Shown: positions 44,465 to 48,976 of the stretch, piece by piece
Position numbering within the stretch: position 1 is the first letter of the stretch
How the letters are laid out: each line of letters opens with the position of its first letter
NCBI RefSeq assembly: GCF_019599265.1
Contig: NZ_JAHZTC010000004.1
Coordinates: 186,001-250,000 of the forward strand
Direction of reading: 5' to 3'
Length of the DNA stretch: 64,000 bases
From: Pontibacter sp. HSC-14F20
Lineage (GTDB): Bacteria > Bacteroidota > Bacteroidia > Cytophagales > Hymenobacteraceae
Position numbers and translations under genes: made by a program
The notes under the pieces: model-generated
Told to the model about the DNA's origin: nothing
What the model saw: the letters and a program-made list of their open reading frames with translations, nothing else
Databases searched by the model: none

Positions 44465-45049
44465 TTAGTTTTTGTTATCCTGCCGGAAGCCCATCGCGTT
44501 TTCCATCTGAGCCCGGATTTCTTTGGTGGTATTGCGCGCCCAAAGGTTAAAGGTAGTATTGTCTGTCTCTTCTATGTCTTTCACATTATCCTCAAACGCA
44601 TCGAGTGCATCTTTGTGGGCATCTACCACAGTATCCCAATAGGCACGGTCAAATTCACCAGCATTTTTATCGCGAAGCTCCTGTACACGTCCTGCGTGGT
44701 CTTCTTCCATTTGCTGTGGCAGCGTAACGCTATATTGCCCTGACATATCTTGCAGCTCGTCCAGCTTCTTGGAGTACAGGTCTACCATTTGCTGACCATA
44801 TTCACGTATTTGGTCCGTTGTGCCTTTCTCGACCGCCAATTTGCCCAACTCTACCTGCTGTGTGCTGATGCTGTGTGCTTTGGTCATAAACTCGCGCTTG
44901 TCATCGTTCAGGGTAGAATCTACTGCAGCGGTTGTGTTCAGTTCGGTGTCTACATTGGCGGTGGTGTCGGTTTCCTGTGTATTCGAGTTACAGGATGCAA
45001 AGGCAAGCGTGCCCAGTGTAAGGGTGGCTGCCATCCATAGGTTTTTCAT
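44465..45049 (-). CDS. DUF4142-family lipoprotein
   Basis: 194-residue lipoprotein from ATG 45049 (the frame extends further but without a signal). Lipobox FASC, then a Thr/Asp/Asn-rich spacer (ETDTTANVDTELNTTAAVDS), then a helical DUF4142 domain with FMTKAHSISTQQVELGKLAVEKG and DRAYWDTVVDAHKDALDAFED. DUF4142 is related to ferritin-like bundles but no clear di-iron set is visible. Function unknown; often stress-linked. Confidence 0.88.
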   Translation of the reverse strand: MKNLWMAATLTLGTLAFASCNSNTQETDTTANVDTELNTTAAVDSTLNDDKREFMTKAHSISTQQVELGKLAVEKGTTDQIREYGQQMVDLYSKKLDELQDMSGQYSVTLPQQMEEDHAGRVQELRDKNAGEFDRAYWDTVVDAHKDALDAFEDNVKDIEETDNTTFNLWARNTTKEIRAQMENAMGFRQDNKN

Positions 45050-45174
45050 AGTCTTATCTTTTGCTTTTGATATTTCTTCGTTTTTTAAAGGCATACGGAA
45101 AAAGGTTCGGTATATGTTCAATTTATTCTATAAACAGCTTATGCGATGCTACAGTTAGGGGAAGGTATAAAGAA

Positions 45175-45215
45175 CAAAGGCTCGACTTCGCCCCAAGGGA
45201 AAAGCCAAGCCTTTG
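45175..45215 (-). terminator. Possible terminator after the general stress protein gene
   Basis: CAAAGGCT (45175-45182) pairs with AGCCTTTG (45208-45215), with a 25-base interior; on the minus strand TTCTTTA follows. Weak compared with others in the window. Confidence 0.4.
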
Positions 45216-45236
45216 ATTCAGGTAAGGTATACTACC

Positions 45237-45773
45237 TTAGTAATAAATATGCTCTCCGCGGTTCTTCTGGAAATGATCCTCGAAGTAGCGGGCATCTTCT
45301 GATGTACGTGGCTTAAAGCCCAGCACGATATTACCTTCTTTCACGCCTTCTTCATATACCTTAGCGCGTTCTTCAGGTATACCGGCACCCACCAGCGCAC
45401 CAATCAGGCCGCCCGTTAAGCCGCCTGCACCTGCACCGGCCAGACCAGCTGCCAGCGGACCAGCCACCACCAGGCCCAAGCCAGGTATAGCTACTGAAGT
45501 ACCGATGGCTGCCACGGCTCCTACTATAGCACCAAGTGTGCCGCCAATGGCTGAACCAGCTCCGGCTCCCTCCAGTGATTTATTTCCAAGTTCGGTGTCG
45601 CCGTCACGGTCTACGTCATCACTAAAGTGACGCTTACGGCCTTCGTCGGACAATACCACGTTGATATCATCTTTGTCGTATCCGCGTGCACGTAGTTCTT
45701 CATAGGCGCGTTCTGCGCTGTCACGGTCCCGGAACATGGCTGTCATCATGCTCGCATTATTTTGTCTGTCCAT
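45237..45773 (-). CDS. General stress protein 17M-like membrane protein
   Basis: 178 residues. The N-terminus (MTAMFRDRDSAERAYEELRARGYDKDDINVVLSDE) is a ferredoxin-like 'general stress protein 17M' type domain. It is followed by a very Gly/Ala-rich hydrophobic stretch (about 70-130) with many GxxxG-like pairs, able to form two membrane helices, and a short acidic tail. Likely a stress-induced membrane protein; function unknown. Confidence 0.8.
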   Translation of the reverse strand: MDRQNNASMMTAMFRDRDSAERAYEELRARGYDKDDINVVLSDEGRKRHFSDDVDRDGDTELGNKSLEGAGAGSAIGGTLGAIVGAVAAIGTSVAIPGLGLVVAGPLAAGLAGAGAGGLTGGLIGALVGAGIPEERAKVYEEGVKEGNIVLGFKPRTSEDARYFEDHFQKNRGEHIYY

Positions 45774-45924
45774 AGTTTAATTTTTTAGTTTGTATAAGTA
45801 TTGTTTAAGGATGCCTGCTTTTTTGCAGACTAGTTTATTGTAACGGCTGACCTAGCCTATGGTTGCAAAAGGGGCTTAGCCAACGCAGTTTTACATTATT
45901 TAAAGTGGTTTCTGCCAGGTGCCA

Positions 45925-45959
45925 ATGAAAAAGCCTTCCATAGCGGAAGGCTTTTTCAT
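45925..45959 (-). terminator. Terminator after the fasciclin gene
   Basis: Perfect 15-bp stem ATGAAAAAGCCTTCC/GGAAGGCTTTTTCAT with a five-base loop. Confidence 0.9.
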
Positions 45960-45980
45960 TAGTGTATAAAATGATGTTGT

Positions 45981-46658
45981 TTATTTTTCGTCGGTTACAC
46001 GGTCAGCAGTTACCAGCACACGGTCAACCACGTGGATTACACCGTTGTTTGCTTCAATATCAGAATCTACAATGCTGGCACCGCCAATAGTAAAGGCAGT
46101 CGGGTTGGCACCTGCAGAAGCTACTTCGATATAGTCATCCTCACCTACCTGAATTCGCTGATTCGTCTGTAGTTGAGCAGTAGTTACTTTACCTGAAATG
46201 ATATGAGCCTGTAGGACCTGAATCAGTTCATTTCTGTTTTCTGGCTTTTTCAGGTATTCCAGTTGACCGGCAGGGAGTTGCTTAAAGGCCTCGTTATTTG
46301 GAGCGAAGATGGTAAACTCACCTTCCTGATCAAAAGCTGCTGAAATGTTAGCCGCCTGTATTAATTCCATGAAAGTAGAAATTTCGCTTTTTGTTCTGGC
46401 TGCATCCAATATAGCCATAGAGCTTGTCTCTGCAGTGGCATCCATTGTGGCAGCAGTATCCATGTCCGTGTTGGTGGTTACGTCGGTGCTTACTTCTGTT
46501 TCTGTAGTAACATCATCACCGGCCATGGTGGTTGTTTCGCTCATGGTTGTAGTTTCGTCCATGGCAGTGGTATCCATTGTATCATTACTGCTGGCGCAGC
46601 TGTATAAAAAGCCTGCGGCAAATACAGCTGCAAGAGGTTTTAACATTCGCATTTTCAT
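45981..46658 (-). CDS. Fasciclin-domain lipoprotein
   Basis: 225 residues from ATG 46658. Signal peptide with lipobox LYSC, then a 55-residue spacer made almost only of Thr, Met, Asp, Glu, Ser and Ala, then one fasciclin (FAS1) domain: FMELIQAANISAAF, FTIFAPNNEAFKQLP, LQAHIISGKV and the closing NGVIHVVDRVL. FAS1 domains mediate adhesion at the cell surface. The spacer suggests it is held away from the membrane. Confidence 0.93.
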   Translation of the reverse strand: MKMRMLKPLAAVFAAGFLYSCASSNDTMDTTAMDETTTMSETTTMAGDDVTTETEVSTDVTTNTDMDTAATMDATAETSSMAILDAARTKSEISTFMELIQAANISAAFDQEGEFTIFAPNNEAFKQLPAGQLEYLKKPENRNELIQVLQAHIISGKVTTAQLQTNQRIQVGEDDYIEVASAGANPTAFTIGGASIVDSDIEANNGVIHVVDRVLVTADRVTDEK

Positions 46659-46750: not shown

Positions 46751-46793
46751 TAAAAAAAGAGGACTATCTACGTTTCAGTATAGATAGTCCTCT
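46751..46793 (-). terminator. Terminator after the sigma/anti-sigma-protease operon
   Basis: Perfect 13-bp stem AGAGGACTATCTA/TAGATAGTCCTCT with a ten-base loop; on the minus strand followed by seven T's. Confidence 0.92.
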
Positions 46794-47975: not shown

Positions 47976-48548
47976 CTATACCTCTGGTTTATAAGAAGTA
48001 AAGAATAGCTTCTTGAGGCGCTGCAGACACTTATACTTCTGGTTCTTGGCTGTGTCTGTGTTCGTATAACCAAACTTCTCCACAATTTCCTGCATCCCCT
48101 GTGCCCGGATGTAAAAGTCCTCCAACAAGGTGCGGCAGGGTTCGCCGAGCTGGTCAAGCGCTTCAGCCATAACGCCGAACTGCCTTTCGTTCTCCTCGTG
48201 CTGCGGCACATCCTCCTCCAGCGACAAGTAGTTCTCAGAATCCTCTATGCGATTTGCGTAGCGGCCTTTCTCTGCCAGTCGTTTTAGCCATAACCTGCGG
48301 CACACGGAATAGAGGTAAGTTTTGATCTGGCAGCTAAGCTCCAGGCTGTTGCCTTTGATCTTCTCGTAGAAGACGATCACGCCTTCCTGATAAATGTCTT
48401 TCGCCTCATCATCAGTTCCACTGTTACTGATAATGAAATAAGAAATCATCGGGAAGTGCAGCTTATAAAGATGTGCGAGCGCTCGGTCATCGTCATTGCG
48501 GATTCCCTCCATGATCGCCTCATCCGTCTCATACAAACTCTTCCTCAT
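47976..48548 (-). CDS. ECF-type sigma-70 family RNA polymerase sigma factor
   Basis: 190-residue alternative sigma factor. Region 2 is visible as DDEAKDIYQEGVIVFYEKI (core binding and -10 recognition), and region 4 near the C-terminus (MQEIVEKFGYTNTDTAKNQKYKCLQRLKK) as a helix-turn-helix for the -35. It is first in a two-gene operon with the membrane anti-sigma-like protease. Its upstream region carries GGGTTAC-N15-GTAT, also found in front of the divergent lipoprotein gene, suggesting autoregulation. Confidence 0.93.
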   Translation of the reverse strand: MRKSLYETDEAIMEGIRNDDDRALAHLYKLHFPMISYFIISNSGTDDEAKDIYQEGVIVFYEKIKGNSLELSCQIKTYLYSVCRRLWLKRLAEKGRYANRIEDSENYLSLEEDVPQHEENERQFGVMAEALDQLGEPCRTLLEDFYIRAQGMQEIVEKFGYTNTDTAKNQKYKCLQRLKKLFFTSYKPEV

Positions 48549-48563
48549 GCCGTTCTGATTTTA

Positions 48564-48589
48564 ATACGCCAGGCCGCTTTTTGTAACCC
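48564..48589 (-). promoter_or_regulatory. Proposed ECF promoter of the sigma operon
   Basis: On the minus strand GGGTTAC (48589-48583), 15 bases, GTAT (48567-48564), 15 bases before the sigma ATG. An identical arrangement faces the other way at 48624-48649. Confidence 0.6.
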
Positions 48590-48623
48590 AACAAAAAAAT
48601 ATTTTAAAAAAATAAAAAATACC

Positions 48624-48649
48624 GGGTTACCTATCCGGGTTTGCGGTAT
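48624..48649 (+). promoter_or_regulatory. Proposed ECF promoter of the acidic lipoprotein gene
   Basis: GGGTTAC (48624-48630), 15 bases, GTAT (48646-48649), 43 bases before the ATG at 48693. Same spacing as the divergent copy at 48564-48589. Confidence 0.6.
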
Positions 48650-48692
48650 GAAGTTCAAATTCGAAACCAAAACACTTAATCACAAACACAAA

Positions 48693-48893: not shown

Positions 48894-48936
48894 TCAATAG
48901 CAGAACTACGGATTATACCTTATAGTTCTAAACACA

Positions 48937-48976
48937 TAAGAAGGCCCTGCAGCAATGCAGGGCCTTCTTATTTTTT
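48937..48976 (+). terminator. Terminator after the acidic lipoprotein gene
   Basis: Perfect 15-bp stem TAAGAAGGCCCTGCA/TGCAGGGCCTTCTTA closed by a GCAA tetraloop, followed by six T's. Confidence 0.94.

Follow-up and report, generated by a model that had tools for sequence, protein, structure and literature searches.

Two facing copies of the pattern GGGTTAC-N15-GTAT lie between an ECF sigma factor gene and a tiny lipoprotein gene of Pontibacter. They are very probably the back-to-back promoters of one autoregulated ECF sigma factor, which would act with its own anti-sigma factor and have a lipoprotein output. The wider genomic distribution is best read as a small regulon dedicated to tiny lipoproteins that are probably glycosylated.

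The paired element and its conservation

In the window, i.e., the whole 64-kb stretch of DNA that was analyzed, the exact pattern was found only twice, and these two matches are the facing pair (Table 1). The coordinates and the equal spacing that an earlier note had given for them were correct to the base. The two elements read outward, with their -35-like ends flanking an A/T-rich tract. Both lie upstream of start codons, as had been claimed, i.e., the sigma factor ATG (48548) stands 15 nt past the end of the minus-strand element, and the lipoprotein ATG (48693) stands 43 nt past the end of the plus-strand element. The tract between the blocks was also A/T-rich in the Pontibacter alignment and in most of the diverse locus set, and it could act as an UP element for both promoters.

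Table 1. Features of the sigma factor locus (window positions)
Feature	Position	Strand	Evidence or detail
Intrinsic terminator past the sigma/anti-sigma operon	46758..46793	minus	14-pair stem and T run
Candidate anti-sigma/protease fusion, 365 aa	46826..47923	minus	Trypsin_2 3.7e-24, AlphaFold models, Foldseek matches
ECF sigma factor, 190 aa, sigma2 and sigma4 only	47976..48548	minus	TIGR02937, Pfam Sigma70_r2
Sigma-operon promoter-like element	48564..48589	minus	GGGTTAC 48589-48583, N15, GTAT 48567-48564, then TAA; exact match
A/T-rich tract separating the two -35-like blocks, ~34 bp	48590..48623		sequence
Lipoprotein-gene promoter-like element	48624..48649	plus	GGGTTAC 48624-48630, N15, GTAT 48646-48649, then GAA; exact match
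Tiny acidic lipoprotein, 66 aa	48693..48893	plus	ORF; lipobox FTAC
Intrinsic terminator past the lipoprotein gene	48936..48971	plus	16-pair stem and T run

When two mismatches were allowed, the window gave 11 matches against 10.3 expected, which is chance level, and this looser pattern was rejected as a signal. The significance of the element therefore rests on exact matching, on where the copies lie, and on their conservation. Across the 4.64 Mb of the whole genome, there were six exact matches against about two expected from base counts, and the reversed control gave one. With NAA required after GTAT, four matches were left, two of them being the facing pair. Exact matches at C3:94058 and C43:181101 were rejected because they lie inside ORFs on either strand.

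Both copies were exact, i.e., GGGTTAC-N15/16-GTAT, in 37 of the 37 Pontibacter loci examined (30 and 7 more), and the spacers had diverged. One lipoprotein-side spacer among the first 30 loci was 16 nt long. The most invariant part of the element in the Pontibacter alignment was the -35-like block. The distances from the elements to both ATGs are nearly fixed, and the gap between the facing copies differs among genera. Over 162 non-identical loci, the sigma-side copy was exact in 147 (135 with N15 and 12 with N16) and the divergent, lipoprotein-side copy in 109, and the reversed-pattern control gave no match. The sigma-side spacer columns of these loci carried 0.07-0.48 bit each, i.e., they were unconstrained. 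The pair was present in each of the five additional genera examined within the family, in further families of the same order (genomes G052, G040, G457, and G553), and in other orders of the class Bacteroidia. A minority of loci (L063, L390, L416, and L417) had a changed sigma-side element or none. The facing pair is not a product of chance. The earlier note had proposed a scan of related genomes, and the conservation found in this way reaches well beyond Pontibacter.

Sigma factor and transcription units

The sigma protein matched TIGR02937 above its cut-off (1.9e-17; 63.4 bits against 42.9), and 16 of 16 homologs matched the ECF profile. The structures of SigW, SigH, and RpoE were matched by the sigma profile. 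By this domain and HMM test, the protein is a plain ECF (group IV) member. It was found in all 150 family genomes searched. The conservation of the element on the sigma side supports the suggestion that this ECF factor is autoregulated, and the two-block promoter appears to be common to the sigma operon and the target genes.

Because of the terminators that follow them, the sigma/anti-sigma operon is probably bicistronic and the lipoprotein gene probably monocistronic. Envelope and stress genes, i.e., those of a fasciclin lipoprotein, a YflT-like stress protein, and a DUF4142 protein, lie downstream on the minus strand (44465-46655). None of these three genes had the exact element.

The anti-sigma/protease fusion protein

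The second product of the operon consists of a three-helix N-terminal domain (residues ~1-75), one transmembrane (TM) segment (~92-113), a coiled or helical linker, and a trypsin/S1C-like domain (~160-328). The protease triad (H181, D211, and S284) and V97-A98-A99 of the TM segment were invariant over 18 divergent homologs. Full-length relatives were found in about 60 of 395 Bacteroidia genomes sampled.

The N-terminal domain was modelled by AlphaFold as three helices with a pLDDT of 83.5. Its best six PDB fold matches in Foldseek were RslA and RsiW, both of them anti-sigma factors, at weak E-values of 1.4-5.0, and NCBIfam gave a weak anti-sigma match over residues 11-129. No Pfam anti-sigma family was matched. 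A PDB sequence search with this domain was discarded, as it returned weak unrelated matches alone, mostly designed coiled coils. The zinc motif Hx3Cx2C was absent from the homolog alignment. This motif is limited to a subset of class I anti-sigma domains (ASDI), and RskA and RseA likewise do not have it (PMC7406223), so its absence is no bar to an ASDI.

The protease half showed fold matches to MucD, HTRA1, and DegS at 1e-11 to 1e-10 in Foldseek, and it also matched the S1C domain of the anti-sigma factor RsgI9. The trypsin-like fold and intact H-D-S triad of an S1C domain are both present. Neither a PDZ domain nor an RsgI N-terminal domain was detected with Pfam and NCBIfam, and only about 35 residues follow the protease domain. 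The fusion protein is therefore not an RsgI, nor is it a full HtrA, as it has no PDZ domain. Its role as an anti-sigma factor is supported, not proven. The membrane anti-sigma/protease that the earlier note had postulated agrees with these models, in which the N-terminus appears to have an anti-sigma-like fold and the C-terminal half is HtrA/DegS-like. Judged from RseA and from the XAA motifs of RsgI proteins, which are read by ClpXP (PMC12203970), the invariant VAA in the TM segment would fit activation via intramembrane proteolysis.

The tiny lipoproteins

The tail of the 66-aa lipoprotein is disordered, rich in Glu, Thr, and Val, and contains two O-glycosylation sequons (DTT and DST). The protein resembles the PG1828 family (NF050142) as a tiny Bacteroidota lipoprotein with an acidic tail. 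However, its match was weak (31.8 bits) and well below the curated cut-off of 50, and by this cut-off it is not a family member. With the divergent copy upstream of its gene, the acidic lipoprotein probably belongs to the same control, as had been suggested.

A set of 164 distinct tiny lipoproteins (48-96 aa) had a median length of 73 aa and a median net charge of -9. The sequon D-[ST]-[AILVMT] occurred 370 times in the set, whereas shuffling of the mature parts gave an expectation of 125 and, over 500 shuffles, never more than 152. Clustering at 50% identity left 28 representatives, with 73 sequons against 19.8 expected (maximum 33). E-[ST] and other control motifs showed no enrichment in the 164 lipoproteins, and D-[ST]-polar was depleted. 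D-S/T-A/I/L/V/M/T is the Bacteroidota O-glycosylation sequon (PMC8729774, PMC12871550). Because they have a lipobox and are enriched in sequons beyond composition, the tiny lipoproteins are probably O-glycosylated; the sequon is generally enriched in the phylum, so its enrichment alone is no proof of function. Some element-linked lipoproteins are Thr-rich, and others are rich in Ala, Glu, Lys, and Asp and probably helical.

Sites outside the sigma locus

In 35 genomes from other genera of the same family, 43 exact N15 sites were found outside the sigma locus, and all of them were inspected. A lipoprotein gene follows 41 of these sites, i.e., that of a tiny lipoprotein within 120 nt at 39 sites and that of a lipoprotein of about 145 aa at the other two. 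The scan pattern spanned N14-N15, so N16 targets were under-counted, and the N14 matches served as a control. None of the 18 N14-spaced sites in these genomes precedes a lipoprotein; many of the 18 are one recurrent coding match and so are not independent. N14 spacing was rejected, since its sites are mostly coding matches. Other families and orders gave 17 further sites that precede tiny lipoproteins. As the regulon scans used exact patterns, degenerate sites were under-counted.

In some genomes, two or three tiny lipoprotein genes in tandem adjoin the sigma gene. Such tandem copies of gene and promoter were seen at L022/L165 (G024), L250 (G141), L062 (G040), and L528 (G314). At two loci from different orders (L243 and L517), the element precedes related larger membrane-anchored lipoproteins of about 270-280 aa with a C-terminal anchor, which are a possible additional regulon member.

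Pontibacter also has a second, unlinked tiny lipoprotein gene under a GGGTTAC element. The element was exact at 17 of 30 such loci, and a close variant at equal distance was found in 10 of the remaining 13. In the genome under study, this second tiny acidic lipoprotein gene (C2:3551-3772; L307, also L038 and L185) has GAAT at -10, not GTAT. The same GAAT recurs at the second-lipoprotein loci of the four close relatives fetched (L304, L306, L308, and L310), and it may therefore be a tuned variant. Two adjacent genes for tiny acidic lipoproteins of 61 and 59 aa (L040; C2:98965-101990 of the same genome) had no GGGTTAC element in the 110 nt upstream. Tiny lipoproteins thus seem to be made under other control as well.

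Some exact sites in Pontibacter precede no lipoprotein. One of them stands 16 nt before the ATG of a pseB-like UDP-sugar dehydratase gene (C11:64203-65219 of the genome under study), which was not accepted as a secure member. The element upstream of this gene was exact in just 7 of 11 close relatives, and its -10 block drifts to TTAT, CTAT, or GTTT. In most other Pontibacter genomes examined, the site reads GGGTGAC and is one arm of a GGGTG...CACCC inverted repeat. This repeat (L252-L281) has variable arms, lies just downstream of a conserved TATCTTGCA element, and looks like a separate operator or a 5'-UTR hairpin.

The earlier note had described a self-contained system of three parts. The sigma factor, the candidate anti-sigma/protease, and the lipoprotein do appear to share one element, but the system was drawn too small, as unlinked tiny lipoprotein genes seem to belong to it too.

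Proposed mechanism and alternatives

The promoter would consist of a -35 block GGGTTAC, a spacer of 15 (sometimes 16) nt, and a -10 block GTAT[T/G/A]AA. From it, the sigma factor would turn on its own bicistronic operon of sigma and anti-sigma genes and, divergently, the tiny lipoprotein gene. The fusion protein is predicted to span the inner membrane once, with the cytoplasmic helical domain holding the sigma factor and, on the periplasmic side, a serine protease domain of the HtrA/DegS type. An envelope signal on the periplasmic domain would probably start the proteolytic release, cleavage and intramembrane proteolysis would free the sigma factor, and freshly made anti-sigma factor would bring back the off state. 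The protease domain may cut its own chain, cut another protein, or merely sense. Linked and unlinked genes would together yield a limited set of tiny, acidic lipoproteins, probably O-glycosylated, which could form a coat on the outer membrane or act back on the sensor.

Other explanations of the element were considered. Two facing 7-mer copies can resemble operator halves, and the invariance of the -35-like block would also suit operators of a separate activator or repressor in place of an ECF -35 region. However, the second block (GTAT and AA) is held at 15-16 nt on both sides and at unlinked sites, the gap between the copies varies from genus to genus, and N14 sites do not have the same gene content. 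Moreover, a sigma gene adjoins the pair, and the loci showed no further conserved gene for a regulator, which makes operators very improbable. It is also quite unlikely that the element is that of a different ECF sigma factor of the genome, or of several whose specificities overlap, and that the local sigma gene is merely one target. Genomes of the class do encode several ECF factors each, and overlapping ECF specificities have been described in F. psychrophilum (PMC9723704), but across families and orders the element goes together with the sigma/anti-sigma pair, and most sites outside the sigma locus precede tiny lipoprotein genes.

The fusion protein could instead be a membrane HtrA-type quality-control protease that is co-expressed with an orphan sigma factor. 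This would agree with its strong HtrA similarity and with the missing Pfam anti-sigma match. We consider it rather unlikely, because the best PDB fold matches to the N-terminal helices are exclusively anti-sigma factors, the weak NCBIfam match points the same way, the single TM segment and the gene order are like those of sigma/anti-sigma operons, and a PDZ domain is missing. An autoregulated ECF sigma factor with a fused anti-sigma factor and protease is thus preferred.

Comparison with known systems

The proposed circuit resembles RpoE/RseA/DegS of E. coli and AlgU/MucA in having an autoregulated ECF sigma factor, an anti-sigma factor with one TM segment, and a periplasmic serine protease of the HtrA type in the signalling pathway, and the VAA of the Pontibacter TM segment is as would be expected for intramembrane proteolysis in such systems. 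DegS is a separate protein in the RpoE circuit, whereas the Pontibacter protease domain is fused to the candidate anti-sigma factor and has no PDZ domain. RpoE-type regulons are broad stress regulons, whereas the predicted Pontibacter regulon comprises only a few tiny lipoproteins.

RsgI9 of Clostridium thermocellum (S1C-NTF2, PDB 7sjy) is likewise an anti-sigma factor whose extramembrane part includes an S1C-type domain. This domain reportedly binds polysaccharide, and the protein is an orphan with no known sigma factor (PMC12203970). RsgI9 is a Firmicute member of the SigI/RsgI family with an RsgI N-terminal domain, whereas the Pontibacter proteins are an ECF pair with a predicted RslA/RsiW-type N-terminus.

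ECF-directed promoters of Bacteroidota are also known from F. psychrophilum SM6 and from P. gingivalis SigP (PMC9723704, PMC4800418). The SM6 promoters have a CGT box at -10 and serve T9SS genes (PMC9723704), unlike the Pontibacter element, and the string GTTAC is absent from the main text of that paper. General O-glycoproteins of Bacteroidota (PMC8729774, PMC12871550) share the sequon in non-cytoplasmic proteins, including lipoproteins. The Pontibacter-type lipoproteins differ from them in being tiny, in having a low-complexity, sequon-rich mature part, and in their apparently dedicated ECF control.

Significance

A literature search, whose scope lay outside the main ECF reclassification (10.1093/nar/gkaa1229), found no account of the GGGTTAC element or of an ECF/anti-sigma-protease/tiny-lipoprotein system, and a search for GGGTTAC with sigma factor gave no relevant paper. 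The sigma group itself may already bear a number in the ECF classification. What is new here is that unlinked N15 sites across the family precede lipoproteins, which the N14 sites do not. ECF factors of Bacteroidota are numerous, and only about 6% were found beside a class I anti-sigma factor (PMC7406223).

A more far-reaching reading is possible but doubtful. It would be a class-wide envelope circuit of Bacteroidia built on an anti-sigma factor that includes its own site-1 protease, with sensing and first cleavage combined in a single polypeptide. Its entire output would be tiny O-glycosylated lipoproteins that form a coat and maybe feed back on the sensor.

The promoter pair would be a ready reporter and expression tool for this poorly tractable group. 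The sigma factor is a core ECF factor of the family. Its promoter code is clear, its anti-sigma candidate, which has a protease built in, is equally clear, and its output is both clear and narrow. Three questions thereby become directly testable, i.e., which envelope signal is received, whether an anti-sigma factor can carry its own site-1 protease, and what role the sequon-rich lipoproteins may have at the cell surface.
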